This document shows, in pieces, positions 3,177-28,462 of a DNA stretch of 64,000 nt. Within the stretch, counting starts at the first letter, position 1; each line of letters starts with the position of its first letter. The notes below the pieces were generated by a model. The model did no database searches. It was not told where the DNA came from and saw nothing but the letters and a program-made list of their open reading frames with translations. The stretch lies in assembly GCF_000751775.1 (NCBI RefSeq), contig NZ_CCRF01000072.1, positions 1 to 64,000 of the forward strand, written 5' to 3'. Both the position numbers and the translations under genes were made by a program. The stretch comes from Caldibacillus thermoamylovorans. GTDB taxonomy: Bacteria > Bacillota > Bacilli > Bacillales > Caldibacillaceae.

Positions 3177-3830
3177 GACGAGAGATTTGGCCTCGTCGCC
3201 AAAAACAAGCATTTTTCACCTTAAAACGGTGACGAGATTCAGGCTCGTCGCCAAAAAAGTGCGTTTTTCACCGGAAAATGGTGACGAGATTCAGGTTCGT
3301 CGTCAAAAATGGGCATTTTTCACCTTAAAACGGTGACGAGATTCAGGCTCGTCGCCAAAAAAGTGCGTTTTTCACCGGAAAATGGTGACGAGATTCAGGT
3401 TCGTCGTCAAAAAAGTGCGTTTTTCACCTTAAAACGGCGACGAGATTCAGGCTCGTCGTCAAAAATAAGCATTTTTCGCCTCAAAGTGGTGACGAGATTC
3501 AGGTTCGTCGTCAAAAATAAGCATTTTTCGCCTCAAAGTGGTGACGAGATTCAGGCTCGTCGTCAAAAATAAGCATTTTTCGCCTCAAAGTGGTGACGAG
3601 ATTCAGGTTCGTCGCCAAAGAAGTGCGTTTTTCACCATAAAACGGCGACGAGATTCAGGCTCGTCGCCAAAAAATCAAGATTTTCACCCAAATACGACGA
3701 CGAGAATAGGTCTCGTCGCCAAAAACAGGCACTTTTCACCTTAAAACGGTGACGAGATTCAGGCTCGTCGCCAAAAAAGAATATTTCTCGCTCCAAAATG
3801 TCAACGAGAACGTATTTCATCGATTTGATT
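3177..3830. repeat. Array of 13 units of a 52-bp hairpin repeat
   Basis: GACGAG recurs at 3177, 3231, 3283, 3335, 3387, 3439, 3491, 3543, 3595, 3647, 3699 and 3751, with a decayed unit at 3803. All steps are 52 bp except the first, which is 54. Each unit holds the hairpin GGYGACGAG-ATTCAGG-CTCGTCGCC; a frequent variant (TTCGTC) still pairs through a G-T wobble. A second small hairpin, CACC-TTAAAAC-GGTG, overlaps its foot. A-rich and T-rich runs (AAAAA and TTTTT around a GTGCG-like centre) can also pair. The period is not a multiple of 3, so the overlapping reading frames are not genes. The array fills the space between the short ORF and ytpR; 3831 to 3988 shows nothing else. The same family recurs at 23143. 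Confidence 0.93.
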
Positions 3831-7259: not shown

Positions 7260-8336
7260 TTATACATTGGCTTTTATACTCGCAACCGTTGTTTTATCAG
7301 CGGCTTTGACAAGTTTGATAAGCAATTCTTTCGCTGCCAAATAATCATCAACATGAATAATGGATGCATGCGAATGAATATACCGTGCACAAATTCCGAT
7401 TACCGCACTTGGTACTCCTTCATTGGCAAGATGAACTTGACCCGCGTCCGTACCGCCACCGGAAACAAAATATTGATACGGTATATGATTCGATTCTGCC
7501 ATATCTAATATGAATTCCCGTAACCCCCGATGTGTGACCATGGTTGGATCATAAATGCGAAGAAGCACACCTTCACCCAGATGACCAAATTGGTTTTTAT
7601 CACCGGTCATATCATTTGCCGCACTGGCATCCAAAGCAAAGTATAAATCCGGTTTAATCATGTATGCGGAAGTTCTTGCCCCGCGTAAACCTACTTCTTC
7701 TTGAACGGTCGCTCCGGAATATAATGTGTTCGGCAATGTCACTCCTTGAAGCTCTTTTAAAAGTTCAATGGCAAGTCCACAGCCATAGCGGTTGTCCCAA
7801 GCTTTTGCCATGATTTTCTTCGGATTGGCAAGCGGTGTAAACGGGCAAATCGGGACAATTTGTTGCCCGGACTTAATTCCGATACGTAAAGCGTCTTCTT
7901 TATCGTCGGCACCGATATCAATTAATAAGTCTTTTATTTCTGTTACTTTGTTCTTATTTTCAGTACCTCTTAATAAGTGTGGGGGAATCGAGCCGATCAC
8001 ACCATCCACCGGCCCATTGTCCGTAAATATTTGGACGCGTTGTGCTTGTAATACTTGGGGTGACCAACCACCTAAAGGCTGAAAACGGATCATTCCGTTT
8101 TTTGTTATCGCTGTAACCATAAAACCGACTTCATCCATATGACCGGCGACCATAATCTTCGGACCGTCTTTTTCACTATGTTTTATTCCAAAAATACTCC
8201 CCAGACCATCTTGAACAATTTCATCCGCATATTTCGTCAACTGTTCTCGCATAAAATTTCGGACAAAATGTTCATTTCCGGAAGTTCCCGGAAGCTCAGT
8301 TAACACTTTAAATAAATCCATTGTCTCTTGATTCAC
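7260..8336 (-). CDS. ytoP: M42 family metallopeptidase YtoP
   Basis: A 358-residue cytoplasmic aminopeptidase of the M42 family (PepA/FrvX/cellulase-M group), expected to trim peptides with two divalent metals. Metal-site motifs are [24 protein letters not shown] with its catalytic Glu pair, the DASAAND aspartate, and HSHASI near the C terminus. The start is GTG 8336 (VNQETMDLF), 7 bases after GGGG and close to the B. subtilis protein length. The ATG overlapping it (8338) would read straight into TGA. An in-frame ATG at 8378 lacks a site. Confidence 0.9.
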
Positions 8337-17977: not shown

Positions 17978-18149
17978 TCAACAGCCTCCTAACGTTTTTC
18001 TGGTATAATAACATTCTTTCCATTTTTAAATAAAGAAAGATATTGGACCCTTTATTAACCACAAATTAGCCAATATACTCTTTCATCCACATGCAAATTT
18101 CTTAGCAAACGATATTTTTCGATTGCACATTAGGGTAAAAATTCTTAAA

Positions 18150-18395
18150 ACCATTCCCTAAATTTAAAGCAGACCATATATTTTTTTCCACGAATCAGGC
18201 TAAATTTTCTTAACTCCATTCCCAAAAATTTAAAGCAGATCATATATTTTTTTCCACGAATCAGGCTAAATTTTCTTAACTCCATTCCCAAAAATTTAAA
18301 GCAGATCATATATTTTTGCCCATACTTTAGACTAAATTTTCTTATCTCCATTACCAAAAACTTATTAAAGCAAACCACCTCTTTTTTAATCAAGA
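18150..18395. repeat. 66-bp tandem repeat, about 3.5 units
   Basis: AATTTAAAGC recurs at 18161, 18227 and 18293, with a diverged unit at about 18359; the period is exactly 66 bp. The two middle units are nearly identical. Because 66 is a multiple of 3, the minus strand has an 82-codon open frame with a 22-residue repeat (ELRKFSLIRGKKYMICF). That frame has no ribosome site, and I treat it as a by-product. Confidence 0.88.
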
Positions 18396-18441: not shown

Positions 18442-18471
18442 ATTACTGAGATTATAGAGGAGGTTATGTTT

Positions 18472-18732
18472 ATGATTGATTACTACCGGCAATATCAATT
18501 TCCCGGCCAAGGACAATTTCCAGGAATGGATCAATTTCAAACCCCGGGACAATTTCCGGGACAGGGGCAATTTCAAACCCCGGGGCAAACCGGACAATTT
18601 TTCCCCGGCTTTCCGGGAACAGGTACACAAACCCGAATTGACAGATTAGAAAGGAATGTAAACCGTTTGGAACGGGAAGTCGACCGCTTGGAAAACCGAC
18701 TTCGCAGAGTAGAAAGACGTTTAGGTTTTTAA
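18472..18732 (+). CDS. Small Gln/Pro/Gly-rich protein with C-terminal coiled coil, possible spore coat component
   Basis: An 86-residue protein. Residues 1-50 are low-complexity repeats of QFPGQGQFPG and QFQTPGQ type. Residues 58-86 form an Arg/Glu/Leu heptad coiled coil (RLERNVNRLEREVDRLENRL). This layout is common among Bacillus spore-surface proteins; the role is inferred. The start is ATG 18472, 8 bases after GAGGAGG; ATG 18466 is too close to that site. A sigma-K-like -10 lies upstream. It is not in an operon: the next gene is convergent. Confidence 0.75.
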   Translation: MIDYYRQYQFPGQGQFPGMDQFQTPGQFPGQGQFQTPGQTGQFFPGFPGTGTQTRIDRLERNVNRLEREVDRLENRLRRVERRLGF

Positions 18733-18846: not shown

Positions 18847-20457
18847 CTAACTAGATAACTTCTTTTTCAAACTTTGCATTTGTTCAGGAAACAAGAAATA
18901 CAATAAGCGTGACTTGAAACTCAAGTAAAAATAAATAACCGCTCCAATTATTGTACAGACCAAAATAATCAGTAATGACATGGATTTTGTTTCCGGTGCT
19001 ATGAATAGGGTGATTAGTTTATAAAACAGAAAAACAGAAATACCCATAATTACATTAAATATAATAATCAAAATCCCCCGTCGGAATACAAGACGATATT
19101 TATAATTGGCAAAATATTTTATCACGATCAAATTGATTATGATTGTGACTGAATATCCGATAACGGTAGCATAAATCGCCCCGAACGTTTGAAATCGCTC
19201 AATCATCGGTGTATTTAAAATAAGTTTAAACAAAAGCCCTAACAACAAGCTGAACACCGTAAATTTTTGTTGATTTAACCCTTGTAAAATCGCAGCGGTT
19301 ACGGAAAATAGGGCAAAAAGGATGGCAACCGGTGCATATATCATTAAAATTTTGGTACCGAATGGATCCGGCTTATAAAAGAATGTATAAAACGGTTCGG
19401 CCAAAATAGAAATTCCAATCGATGCAGGCAATGTTAAAAACAATAACACTTGAAACGTTTGATTCATTTGTGATTTCAATTGCTTTTCACGATGATTAAC
19501 AAACGCATCGGTAATTGATGGGACAAGCGAAACGGAAAAGGCGGTCGCCAGTGATACAGGGATAATGACAATTTTATGTGAATTTACGTTTAAAGCTGCA
19601 AGACTTGCATCAGCAATTTTTGCCAAACCGATATTTGCCATTGCCTGATTATGGATTAACTGATCGACTAATTGAAATAAGGAATTCGCGATCCCAACGA
19701 CAACAAACGGAATTGCCGATATAAAAATCTCTTTATAAATCTCTTTTAAGGATATTTGAATAGTTCCCTTATCTTTTCGTAACAATTCATCCAAATACGG
19801 TTTTCGCTTATACCAATACCATAGTAAAACAATTAAACTGCCGATCGCACCAACAAAGGCTGCAAATGTCGCCACTTGGACAGCTGTAACAACAGAACCA
19901 TGAAATACTTTTAAAACGACAAGTGCCCCGATTAAAAGAAATGCAACCCGAACAATTTGCTCAACGACTTGTGACACAGCAGACGGTCCCATGGATTGAT
20001 GCCCTTGAAAGAAACCACGTATGAGACTCATAAACGGGACAATGATTAATGCAAAGCTGACTGCCCGAATAACTGACACAACATCATCAGACTTTATTAT
20101 TTGATCTTTATCTGCAATGATAATATCAGCAAATGTCGGAGCCAATAAATAAAGAATGATAAATGAAGCCAAGCCTGTCAAAAGCATGACAACCAAGCCT
20201 GACTTAAATAATTTCCGCCCAACACCATACTCTTCCAAGGCATTGTATTTGGAAATAAACTTGGAAACAGCTAAAGGAATGCCCGCCGTCGCAATACTAA
20301 TAAAAATCGTATACGGTACATATCCGTAATTATAGAGTGCGTTACCATTATCTCCAACCAATGCAAAAAAAGGAATTATGTATATTAAGCCAAGAAATTT
20401 TGAAATATATGTACCAAGGGTCAGAATAAACGTACCCCGCATAAATTTTGAACCCAT
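18847..20457 (-). CDS. murJ: Lipid II flippase MurJ (YtgP), MOP/MATE-like superfamily
   Basis: A 536-residue polytopic membrane protein with about 14 hydrophobic segments, starting MGSKFMRGTFILTLGTYISK. RGFFQGHQSMGPSAVSQVVEQ is typical of the SpoVB/YtgP group. B. subtilis YtgP is the lipid II flippase MurJ needed for wall synthesis, redundant with Amj. The position after ytzE-ytzG supports YtgP rather than SpoVB. The ribosome site before ATG 20457 is weak (TTAGGTTGGG); ATG 20442 is an alternative. It is divergent from ytfP across a repeat array. Confidence 0.88.
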   Translation of the reverse strand: MGSKFMRGTFILTLGTYISKFLGLIYIIPFFALVGDNGNALYNYGYVPYTIFISIATAGIPLAVSKFISKYNALEEYGVGRKLFKSGLVVMLLTGLASFIILYLLAPTFADIIIADKDQIIKSDDVVSVIRAVSFALIIVPFMSLIRGFFQGHQSMGPSAVSQVVEQIVRVAFLLIGALVVLKVFHGSVVTAVQVATFAAFVGAIGSLIVLLWYWYKRKPYLDELLRKDKGTIQISLKEIYKEIFISAIPFVVVGIANSLFQLVDQLIHNQAMANIGLAKIADASLAALNVNSHKIVIIPVSLATAFSVSLVPSITDAFVNHREKQLKSQMNQTFQVLLFLTLPASIGISILAEPFYTFFYKPDPFGTKILMIYAPVAILFALFSVTAAILQGLNQQKFTVFSLLLGLLFKLILNTPMIERFQTFGAIYATVIGYSVTIIINLIVIKYFANYKYRLVFRRGILIIIFNVIMGISVFLFYKLITLFIAPETKSMSLLIILVCTIIGAVIYFYLSFKSRLLYFLFPEQMQSLKKKLSS

Positions 20458-20640
20458 ACAATCCCAACCTAACAGTTTTTCTCTTTTAATAATATTATCT
20501 GCTCAACATTATGACAAATTTTTACGTTAAAATACACTAATCTAGTTTACATGTTTTTATATTGAATTGACAATTTACTTTTATATTTTTTGCGAACTTT
20601 TTAGGGATGAAGCAGATTGAACTGCTTTTTTTATTTTTCT

Positions 20641-20905
20641 GTCGAAATTCAAGTGATTTGTTGTTGAATTTTTCCTTCCGTAGTTGAATTTGAGGAATCT
20701 GCTGATGAATTCGATAGGTTGCTGTTGATTATAGGTGCCCTGCTGTTGAATTTTTCATTTTTACTATTGAATTAAGGCTTGTTTGCTGTTTATTTTTCTC
20801 TTTTTACTGGTGAATTAGATGGGGGGACTGTTGAATAAATTAAGATATCTTACGGTTGAATTCGGCAGCGGTACTGTCAAGTCGCCATGGGAACTGCTGA
20901 TTTCA
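20641..20905 (+). repeat. 21-bp-spaced array of the CTGTTGAATT motif, about 13 units
   Basis: GTTGAA or close variants start at 20641, 20663, 20683, 20704, 20724, 20745, 20766, 20788, 20809, 20830, 20855, 20876 and 20896. All steps are 20-22 bp except one of 25. The conserved part is about ACTGTTGAATT and the rest of each unit is unrelated sequence. The array occupies most of the 566-base gap between the divergent genes murJ and ytfP. The reverse-oriented twin is at 28125. Confidence 0.88.
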
Positions 20906-21023
20906 CCCTGTACGATCACCCACCTTGATCTATCAGTAAAAAAACTTAAATCCACTTTCTTTCTGATTTCCCCTTTTATATAATGAATGAAGTTATAACC
21001 TGATAATGAAAAAGGTGATTGTT

Positions 21024-22301
21024 TTGAATGTAGATGTATTCGTAATAGGTGGCGGTCCGAGTGGATTGATGGCGGCAATTGCAGCAGGAGAAACAGGGGC
21101 GAACGTGTTGCTTGTCGATAAAGGTGATAAGCTTGGTCGAAAGCTTGCTATTTCCGGTGGCGGGCGCTGCAATGTAACAAACCGTCTTCCGGTTGATGAA
21201 ATTGTTAAACATATTCCCGGGAACGGCCGCTTTCTTTACAGTGCCTTCTCTATTTTTAACAATGAGGACATTATAAAATTCTTTGAAAATTTAGGTGTGA
21301 AGCTGAAAGAAGAGGATCACGGACGAATGTTTCCGGTCACAAACGATGCAAAATCAGTCGTCAATGCATTACTGAACCGATTGAAAGAACTTGACGTAAT
21401 GATTAGAACAAATACCCCTGTTGCGGATATCAATTACGAAGACGGTCATGTGGCAGAAGTTATTTTAAAAAATGGTGAAAAAATAAAGGCCCGCTCTGTC
21501 GTTGTTGCGGTCGGCGGTAAATCGGTCCCTCACACCGGTTCTACAGGTGACGGATATCCTTGGGCGGAAAAAGCCGGACATACAGTAACTGAACTCTACC
21601 CGACAGAAGTTCCTTTACTTTCGGATGAACCTTTTATAAAAAATCGTACATTACAAGGATTATCGCTTCGAAATGTAGCTTTATCGGTATTAAATCCAAA
21701 AGGAAAACCGATTATTACCCATCAAATGGATATGATTTTTACCCATTTCGGTATTTCCGGACCGGCTGTTTTACGGTGCAGCCAATTTGTCGTTAAAGCA
21801 ATGAAAAAATGGAATCTGTCACATGTAACCATGAAACTGGACACAATTGTTGACCGGACCGAAGAAGAAATTTTTCAGGAAATTGTTTCTCATGTAAAAG
21901 AAGAAGCGAAAAAAGCGGTCAAAAATGCTTTGAAAGGTCTTTTACCGGAACGTTACCTTTTATTTTTATTGGAGCAAGCAGAAATTGACCAAGACCAGCC
22001 GATGAACACCATTGCAAAAGAGAAGCTCCGAAAGCTCGCTCAACTTTGTAAAGATTTCCGCTTTACTGTTAACGGTACCTTACCTTTAGAAAAAGCCTTT
22101 GTAACAGGCGGTGGAATTTCTATAAAAGAAGTCGAGCCAAAGACAATTGCATCGAAAAAAATGGAAGGACTTTATTTTTGCGGGGAAATTTTGGATATTC
22201 ACGGCTACACAGGGGGATATAATATTACGTCGGCTCTTGTCACCGGAAGACTTGCAGGCTTAAATGCGGCAAAATTTGCTTTAAAACTGGAAAACGAGTA
22301 A
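21024..22301 (+). CDS. ytfP: HI0933-family flavoprotein YtfP
   Basis: A 425-residue FAD-dependent oxidoreductase of the HI0933/YhiN/BaiN group. The N-terminal dinucleotide site is [12 protein letters not shown], the family stretch is [16 protein letters not shown], and C-terminal FAD contacts are [17 protein letters not shown] and ITSALVTGR. The substrate is unknown. I prefer TTG 21024, 6 bases after AAAGGTG, because the B. subtilis protein begins at the same point; ATG 21006 lacks a site. A strong terminator follows. Confidence 0.9.
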
Positions 22302-23016: not shown

Positions 23017-23142
23017 CTTCCATCATCCTTTGTAAAAAATATCATGCGTTCATTTTAGCATAATAGATTCCGTAACGAGGAATAGTTTGATTTGGTTAAT
23101 TAGTGATGAAATGCATGAATCTTTTATTAAAACAAAATTAGC

Positions 23143-23326
23143 GACGAGAAACGAGGCTCGTCGTCAAAAAAGAGCGTTTCTCACCGAAAAATGATGACGA
23201 GATCGGGTTTCGCCGCCAAAATAGAGCAGTTTTCACCTCAAATTGGTGACGAGAATAGGTCTCGTCGTCGAAAATGAGACTTTTTCACCCCAAAATGGTG
23301 ACGAGATTCGCCCTCGTCGTCAAAAT
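23143..23326. repeat. Second array of the 52-bp hairpin repeat, 4 units
   Basis: GACGAG starts at 23143, 23196, 23248 and 23300 (steps 53, 52, 52). Units carry GACGAG-AATAGGT-CTCGTC-type stems and the same TTTTTCACC...AAATGGTG linker as the array at 3177. They are more diverged from each other than in the first array. It fills most of the 343-base gap between ytwF and leuS. Confidence 0.9.
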
Positions 23327-23350
23327 AGGTCATCCGTAAAAGATGACCTT
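23327..23350. terminator. Probable terminator downstream of leuS
   Basis: AGGTCATC pairs with GATGACCT around CGTAAAA. On the minus strand it is followed by ATTTT, on the plus strand by TTTTT. Confidence 0.6.
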
Positions 23351-25847: not shown

Positions 25848-26105
25848 ATAAAAATCCCCCCATCCCAAAACTGATTTGGGACGAGAGGATTGTCTCCCGC
25901 GGTACCACCCAATTTAATATATATCAGCATATAATGCCGAAATATATTCACTTGATTAGCCCGTAACGTGGGTCGAGCCGGCAAATATTACTCAATTCAT
26001 ATTTGCAACTCAGAGGCGAGTTCATGTTGCTGATGACTAACTCCCACCGACCGTTAGCTCTCTTTGAACAACAGCGGACATTACTACTCCTCGTCACCGT
26101 TTTTA
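25848..26105 (-). promoter_or_regulatory. Leucine T-box leader of leuS
   Basis: On the minus strand, the T-box sequence GGTGGTACCGCGGGA lies at about 25893-25909. It is followed by a terminator stem (CGTCCCAAA/TTTGGGATGGG) and TTTTT at 25853-25885. Upstream, the Stem I specifier loop reads ATGAA-CTC-GCC, so the specifier is the leucine codon CTC at 26018-26020. Uncharged tRNA-Leu should switch the terminator to the antiterminator. An open frame through it (25802-25984) is not a gene. Confidence 0.95.
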
Positions 26106-26194
26106 TCCAGTTAGTATGGCAATATTATAGTGAAAAATTTGGAAAAAAGCAAGCAAAGTTCGAGGAATTTCGATAATTCACCCCGCTCATTAAC

Positions 26195-28095: not shown

Positions 28096-28124
28096 ATTTT
28101 AAAAATAATTTTTAGTTCGCCTAG

Positions 28125-28425
28125 TTCAACAATCTTACCCGGATTTAACAGTATAGGACCAATTTCAATAGTGACATCACGATATTTCAACAACAAGATT
28201 CCCAATTCAATAAACCCACCCTTGAATTTAACAGTAACCCCCGTCAATTCAACAGTAAAAGGGAAATATTCAACAGTAGATAGACGGGAATTCAACAGTA
28301 AATAGAAAAAATTCAACAGTGCACTCTTAAAATTCAACAGTACCCCCACCGATTTCAACAGTAAGATACCTTAATTCAACAGTGCACTTCTAAATTTCAA
28401 CAGTGCCATACCAAAATTTCAACGG
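28125..28425 (-). repeat. 21-bp-spaced array of the AATTCAACAGT motif, 15 units
   Basis: TTCAAC or near variants start at 28125, 28144, 28164, 28186, 28206, 28227, 28248, 28269, 28291, 28312, 28333, 28354, 28375, 28396 and 28418. The period is 21 bp (19-22). This is the reverse complement of the motif in the array at 20641. Since 21 is a multiple of 3, the minus strand stays open for 89 codons and reads as a heptapeptide repeat (LLNF/TVEF cores); there is no ribosome site, so I do not call it a gene. It lies between bioY and the MFS gene. Confidence 0.93.
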
Positions 28426-28428
28426 CAA

Positions 28429-28462
28429 AAAATCGCTGCCCGAAATGAGGCAGCGATTCAGT
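28429..28462 (-). terminator. Terminator of the MFS gene
   Basis: On the minus strand AATCGCTGCC-TCATTTCG-GGCAGCGATT is followed by TTTTG. Confidence 0.9.

Follow-up and report, generated by a model that had tools for sequence, protein, structure and literature searches.

The window, by which we mean the whole stretch of 64,000 nucleotides of Caldibacillus thermoamylovorans DNA that was analysed (contig NZ_CCRF01000072.1), carries an array of short direct repeats, array 1, between two divergent genes that encode a MurJ/SpoVB-like flippase and an HI0933-like flavoprotein (YtfP) (Table 1). Both the gene arrangement and the 13 units had been described in a sequence-only reading of this DNA, and the array is real: its chain score is 122.9 with a motif model derived from the 13 other arrays in this genome, and no chain in 12 dinucleotide shuffles of the entire window exceeds 15.2. 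Twelve of the 13 units share at least 8 of 10 positions with CTGTTGAATT, and the remaining unit shares 6 of 10. The constant 21-bp spacing proposed by the same reading holds in a looser form; the spacings run 22, 20, 21, 20, 21, 21, 22, 21, 21, 25, 21 and 20, and are thus 20-22 bp in 11 of the 12 steps but exactly 21 bp in only six, with a single step of 25. Tandem Repeats Finder at score 50 does not report array 1, and an 87-aa ORF overlaps it. The terminator-like hairpin that ends 4 bp before the array (terminator scan score 8.5) sits between the two divergent genes and is possibly the end of a leader or of a small RNA.

Table 1. Repeat arrays, flanking genes and other features of the window (positions in the 64,000-nucleotide stretch).
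Feature	Position	Strand	Details
MurJ/SpoVB-like flippase gene	18847..20457	-	flanks array 1
Terminator-like hairpin	20610..20632	+	AAGCAG/CTGCTT with T-run; ends just ahead of array 1
Array 1	20637..20903	+	13 units; core (T)ACTGTTGAATT plus 8-13 nt filler
HI0933-like flavoprotein gene (YtfP)	21006..22301	+	flanks array 1
Array 2	28123..28427	-	15 units; core as in array 1; spacing 19-22
Terminator-like hairpin	28427..28459	-	with T-run; adjoins array 2 and the 3' end of an MFS transporter gene
52-bp tandem repeat	3192..3778		11 copies; hairpin arms CTCGTCGCC...GGTGACGAG
52-bp tandem repeat	23135..23328		about 3 copies
66-bp tandem repeat	18142..18364		3.4 copies
Small-protein ORF	18466..18732		FPGQGQF-type repeats
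T-box leader	25874..26106	-	upstream of leuS

Array 2, the other array of the window, is better conserved (chain score of 173.7 with the same motif model), and parts of it are detected by Tandem Repeats Finder. Its adjoining hairpin has a terminator scan score of 11.5. No Rfam family was found at either window array. Elsewhere in the window there are two further kinds of tandem repeat, an ORF for a small repetitive protein and a T-box leader (Table 1); the arm sequence of the 52-bp repeat has more copies at two other loci, L063 and L064.

Array 1 had been treated as a single locus, which it is not: the 15 places read in this genome gave 15 arrays, two of them in the window, with 3 to 15 units each and 140 units in total. 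Exact TGTTGAATT pairs with a gap of 0-30 occur 12 times in the genome, all 12 at a spacing of 20-23 bp, and the reversed pattern occurs nowhere in it, which bears out the preferred genome-wide spacing that had been predicted, as against no preference at all. When up to three mismatches were allowed, two cores at 21-bp spacing gave 61 matches in the genome and none for the control. Across the 15 arrays 86 of the 125 spacings are exactly 21 bp and 118 are 20-22 bp, with a mean of 20.98 and a standard deviation of 0.93. About 12 positions of the unit carry much information, and the filler positions shown carry little (0.03-0.27 bits). The family, its phasing and a motif common to many loci are thus established, and the idea of two-turn phasing with a conserved core is supported over many loci.

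No ORF of at least 200 aa overlaps any array of this genome. Only with that length limit can the arrays of this genome be said firmly to lie between genes, because shorter overlapping ORFs were set aside; with the limit applied, 11 of the 82 arrays surveyed keep an overlapping ORF, and all 11 belong to other genomes. The 29 genes scanned with Pfam at the flanks of the 15 arrays include those for transporters, P-type ATPases, regulators and enzymes, with one gene outside any family, and no initiator is among them. The layout of the flanking genes is tandem in five and four cases for the two directions, divergent in four and convergent in one, and so displays no polarity. Regulation of the neighbouring gene was rejected as a role, the genes scanned (29 here and 10 in the related genus g51) having no function in common. 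A coding repeat, in which 21 bp would stand for seven codons, was also rejected for the window arrays, as their spacing slips by one.

The filler is less free than had been supposed. Between arrays of this genome 58 pairs of fillers are at least 80% identical, compared with a mean of 11.0 (maximum 18) after shuffling of their letters; therefore the arrays here are partly copies of each other, and the claim of a conserved core with variable filler stands only with the reservation that the filler does not vary freely. By eye, several arrays appear to have a common order of G-rich and T-rich fillers, and a test of that order is suggestive only, being weak (15 common neighbour pairs against a shuffled mean of 4.7 and maximum of 13). 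In units matched by their filler, differences amount to 91 of 420 positions in the core and 30 of 319 in the filler; such pairs were chosen for likeness of filler and are biased, and cannot show that the core is free. As far as these comparisons go, this genome gives no sign of recent core-only selection, and its copies may be partly decayed. On an alternative reading, the arrays would have arisen from an ancestral multi-unit block that was copied to many intergenic places, gained and lost units by unequal exchange and is now mostly neutral here. The recurrence of filler, the apparent order and a core kept no better than the filler in the filler-matched pairs agree with this, as does the range of 4 to 86 units in the group g71. 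We consider it possible but on balance unlikely, given the weakness of the order test and the conservation of core alone in g51, described below, which it leaves unexplained.

Related arrays, often with a motif of their own, are present in other genera of the order. Among 40 relatives, 39 have no exact pair and one (G020) has a single pair; when mismatches are allowed, the sole congener in that set (G001) has a seven-unit array with the core ACTGTTGAAGTTT. Among 84,980 genomes exact pairs occurred in 27 stretches, and among 13 of the 27 stretches read, arrays lay in Salirhabdus sp. Marseille-P4669 (two) and Sporolactobacillus sp. THM7-4 (three). Salirhabdus is a genus of the Bacillaceae in the order Caryophanales (NCBI taxonomy), the same order as this genome. 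In one of its stretches (L096) an array of the family is followed, past position 7412, by a second and different kind of repeat, CTCCCCGCGAACGAGGGAA, with a unit of about 21 bp.

A three-unit pattern was run over 397 genomes of the order, and matches that look coding were excluded from the array counts. It matched 61 genomes, many with a single match, and gave at least four matches in 14. The reversed pattern gave at least four matches in 11 genomes; it is not a true control, because its matches proved to be arrays wherever they were read (G099, G145, G236, G241, G279 and G325). A scrambled pattern matched three of the 397 genomes, none with four matches or more, and the reverse of the scrambled pattern gave at least four in G011, G017, G037 and G231. 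The matches in G037 are probably its known arrays; those in G011, G017 and G231 (13, 6 and 7 matches) are perhaps 21-bp arrays of other motifs. We read 15 of the 25 genomes with at least four matches, the other ten being G079, G154, G242, G263, G270, G271, G284, G333, G345 and G365.

Written in the sense opposite to the core given for array 1, the consensus core is AATTCAACAGTAAA in this genome, AATTCACGAGTAAA in g71, AAAGTGGACAGTAAA in g51, AAGTGGCCAGCAAAT in G099 and GAGTGGTCAAATAAC in the group g44, a likeness between groups that is partly a product of the search, because the searches sought such words. Spacing is exactly 21 bp in 229 of 296 steps in g71, 66 of 69 in g44, 25 of 27 in G099 and 55 of 57 in Salirhabdus. 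The smaller share of 21-bp steps in g71, together with arrays of up to 86 units there, looks like satellite growth. The presence of arrays is patchy, four of the 11 g51 genomes (G052, G089, G118 and G194) having fewer than four matches to either form of the pattern; G145, G241 and G325 are array-bearing genomes of g51.

Core and filler were also compared in g51. All 25 loci chosen there, which come from three species (11, 7 and 7 loci) and include many orthologues, have arrays of 5-6 units, and all 117 spacings are exactly 21 bp, a regularity favoured by the choice of loci through a pattern with three units at 21. In nine orthologous array pairs changes were counted at 26 of 720 core positions (3.6%), 58 of 286 filler positions (20.3%) and 180 of 1716 flanking positions; the core differs from the filler with p of 6e-16 and the filler from the flank with p of 1e-5. 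The core had been defined by likeness among units, and the comparison between species is separate from that definition. One of the nine pairs (L168/L174) goes the opposite way, with 4 of 90 changes in the core and 1 of 36 in the filler. Core and filler are less clearly set apart in g44 (26 of 420 in the core and 18 of 168 in the filler), where one of five array pairs is clearly reversed (14 of 75 and 4 of 30). To judge from these alignments, it is the g51 core and not the filler that is under selection, as in a site bound by protein. Gap columns inside the nine g51 pairs number 0, 0, 21, 23, 0, 0, 2, 21 and 21, mostly whole units, and tandem duplication therefore plays a part.

The g51 result also bears on a plain minisatellite made by slippage, which we regard as improbable. 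Whole-unit differences between orthologues and the partial detection of array 2 by Tandem Repeats Finder are what slippage would give, and the filler-matched pairs of this genome, biased as they are, are compatible with equal divergence of core and filler. Yet array 1 escapes the same program, and the 15 loci have one core in common although their fillers mostly differ. In g51 the core is kept while the filler changes, which fits a bound site and not slippage. The preference of the sequence-only reading for a bound protein over slippage is thus upheld by g51, whereas the core and filler counts in this genome speak against it. In this genome the arrays may be in decay, as the remains of a system that selection still maintains elsewhere.

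Position and direction differ between groups. A gene on one fixed side points at the array at 10 of 11 loci in g51, 17 of 20 in g71 and 5 of 5 in G099, at distances mostly below 100 bp (maximum 1011), and a terminator-like hairpin stands between that gene and the array at 8 of 10, 9 of 17 and 2 of 5 loci, respectively. Tandem gene pairs from all groups divide 32 to 9 between the two directions, and 27 to 4 when this genome and g44 are left aside, a choice made post hoc. There is no fixed polarity in g44, and the small Salirhabdus and Sporolactobacillus sets are mixed. For the complete chromosome of G339 the direction of replication was taken from the GC skew of 20 sampled stretches, and of the 11 array loci that could be placed, 10 point the same way relative to it. 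Clustering of arrays away from the origin of this chromosome is not claimed, as only 171 of its 347 motif matches lie in the stretches read.

Such an arrangement would suit a chromosomal roadblock or insulator, in which a host protein coats arrays behind genes and stops read-through RNA polymerase or marks boundaries, the motif drifting with the specificity of that protein. This would be one possible job of a bound array and is compatible with our preferred reading, given below. The fixed side of the gene, the intervening hairpins, the orientation in G339 and the lack of a common function among the 10 g51 genes scanned are in its favour, against which stand the absence of polarity in this genome and in g44, the mixed Salirhabdus and Sporolactobacillus sets and the patchy presence in g51; no candidate host protein was found. 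We consider it rather unlikely.

An element acting as transcribed RNA is very improbable. Array orientation relative to the neighbouring gene is fixed in some groups, and one array of this genome (L052) folds on one strand with a z of -6.0, but the other folding energies lie near those of shuffles on both strands (mean z by group and strand of -0.56 to 0.95 for 15 arrays here and 11 in g51), Rfam has no family at the two window arrays, and the hairpins, where found, lie between the gene and the array. A C-rich RNA for Rho binding was rejected as well, the g51 sense strand being, by eye, purine-rich. Resemblance to a Spo0A box, a CtsR box or parS was considered and set aside. The suggestion of a bent-DNA site, made for array 1, gains no separate support: its predicted curvature has a z of 0.8. 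The values are -1.3 to 3.4 in this genome and 3.0-5.6 for 11 g51 arrays, and curvature above shuffles is uninformative here because an in-phase repeat yields it by itself.

The layout of the arrays is that of iterons. These are mostly repeats of 17-22 bp to which Rep binds cooperatively, and cooperative binding is lost when two iterons are half a turn apart (PMC4980987). Direct repeats of that length in helical phase are what this genome has, with 118 of 125 spacings at 20-22 bp, and an initiator gene beside the repeats is what it does not have; no Rep_3 gene was found in this genome at all. A blastn search with a g51 array against 72,556 plasmid records returned four Tetragenococcus plasmids (E of 8e-9). 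In the two that were opened the match lies 67 bp upstream of the replication initiation gene, and the one read closely has four 22-bp repeats and a gene that is Rep_3 by Pfam. An E limit of 10 added 98 Enterococcus records (best E of 0.09) and 14 Rhizobium records; in one Enterococcus record the rep gene begins 212 bp past the match, and in another there is no annotated gene on that side and two Rep genes on the opposite one. In NZ_LR135245.1 the array match is at 76934-77005 and the gene at 75922-76662 is 59.5% identical to the Tetragenococcus Rep. The g51 core shares 14 of 15 bases with the iterons of Tetragenococcus and Enterococcus, and the reversed g51 array found nothing among the plasmid records at E up to 10.

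The match was restricted to g51, one of five motifs tested. For array 2 and for arrays of g71, G099 and g44, the plasmid records yielded no match or matches of the kind expected by chance, with the reservation that the simple-repeat filter may have masked some. Phages had no match to the g51 array, and viral contigs had one match to the motif of this genome and none for two other motifs. A perfect DnaA box within 300 bp is absent at the 15 arrays and equally at six Rep_3 comparison loci, and is uninformative.

We also inspected Rep_3 loci themselves. A tandem repeat of 18-24 bp is present at 20 of 21 loci of a first set, in some Bacillaceae with 21-bp units and degenerate filler, and at 9 of 13 loci of a second set, drawn from the g71 genus and the f46 family, in some with barely two copies; the two sets have two loci in common, and L229, where the record starts at the gene, and L215, from the 21-locus set, were left out. 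At none of the 13 loci, only one of which is from g51, do repeats match the g71, g51 or own core, and four have no such repeat. In a Mesobacillus foraminis plasmid (L218) the Rep_3 origin has two sets of 20-21 bp repeats, whose fillers appear to alternate much as in the chromosomal arrays. Rep_3 genes are rare, occurring in 5 of 36 genomes of the g71 genus and 5 of 34 of the f46 family, and among 44 genomes they occur in 2 of 24 with arrays and 2 of 20 without; therefore there is no association with arrays either way.

The reading that we prefer, with a probability of about 0.6, is that the arrays are phased, cooperatively bound and iteron-like; array 1 would probably be one member of a dispersed family of that kind. 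Direct repeats with a core of 11-15 bp set two helical turns apart would allow many molecules of one sequence-specific protein to line up along a single face of the helix. That protein would most likely be a winged-helix initiator of the Rep type, or a protein that binds like one, because the layout is that of iterons. One possible job would be to titrate or handcuff such an initiator, and we think it unlikely that holding a Rep-type initiator is what the arrays do. Titration of an initiator, a roadblock or insulator, and drifting copied repeats are mutually compatible.

A decoy for initiators is a related possibility, again as a job that a bound array might have: as mimics of iterons, the arrays would titrate or handcuff the Rep protein of plasmids that invade the cell, and so make the chromosome incompatible with those plasmids. 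The near-identity of the g51 core to Rep_3 iterons of Tetragenococcus and Enterococcus plasmids argues for it, and a chromosomal cluster of initiator sites that titrates RctB is known in Vibrio (PMC6090056). Against it are the plasmid match for a single motif, the Rep_3 genes, as rare without arrays as with them, the different iterons, or lack of any found, at Rep_3 loci in the g71 genus and f46 family, and the fixed orientation, which it leaves unexplained. We judge a decoy role unlikely. Still more doubtful is the wider proposal that chromosomal iteron mimics capture the initiators of incoming plasmids as an anti-plasmid defence made from DNA sites alone, intergenic, kept by selection, placed directly behind genes in some groups and with a motif set by the plasmids that each lineage meets. 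The chromosomal island SGI1, equipped with an iteron origin, can displace a plasmid (PMC7433901); because it acts by replicating, the parallel is a loose one.

If the g51 pattern is general, several genera of the order would carry phased, selected putative binding sites at many chromosomal places, in the form of plasmid replication-control sites, and these would make up either a system that organises the chromosome or a passive barrier to plasmids. The nearest literature concerns the direct-repeat origins of secondary replicons (PMC7671480 and PMC6090056), and among the matches listed from open-licence PubMed Central, judged by titles and the openings of abstracts, none describes initiator-free chromosomal arrays of this kind.

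Several known systems invite comparison. As in CRISPR arrays, a repeat alternates with variable intervening sequence; unlike in CRISPR, the repeats are much shorter and degenerate, with a core of 11-12 bp, occur at many loci and are sometimes off by one in spacing, and the fillers are short and recurring, whereas the repeats of a CRISPR array are nearly identical and each spacer is unique. Eukaryotic rDNA terminator arrays (Sal box/TTF-I, Reb1) also consist of repeated sites in fixed orientation behind a transcription unit, and the likeness is of layout only. On chromosome 2 of Vibrio cholerae a chromosomal cluster of initiator sites titrates RctB and has been compared with datA of E. coli (PMC6090056). 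The arrays may resemble these as clusters of initiator-type sites that lie on a chromosome away from the origin and have a putative holding role, with the difference that those clusters bind a resident initiator and that a search of this genome for a Rep_3 initiator found none. From the iterons of Rep_3 theta plasmids the arrays differ in being many, dispersed and without an adjoining initiator gene, and such Rep_3 repeats as were detected within g71 and g51 are unlike the array cores of these groups; the arrays are like the iterons in consisting of several noncoding direct repeats of about 21-22 bp and, in g51, in having the same core.
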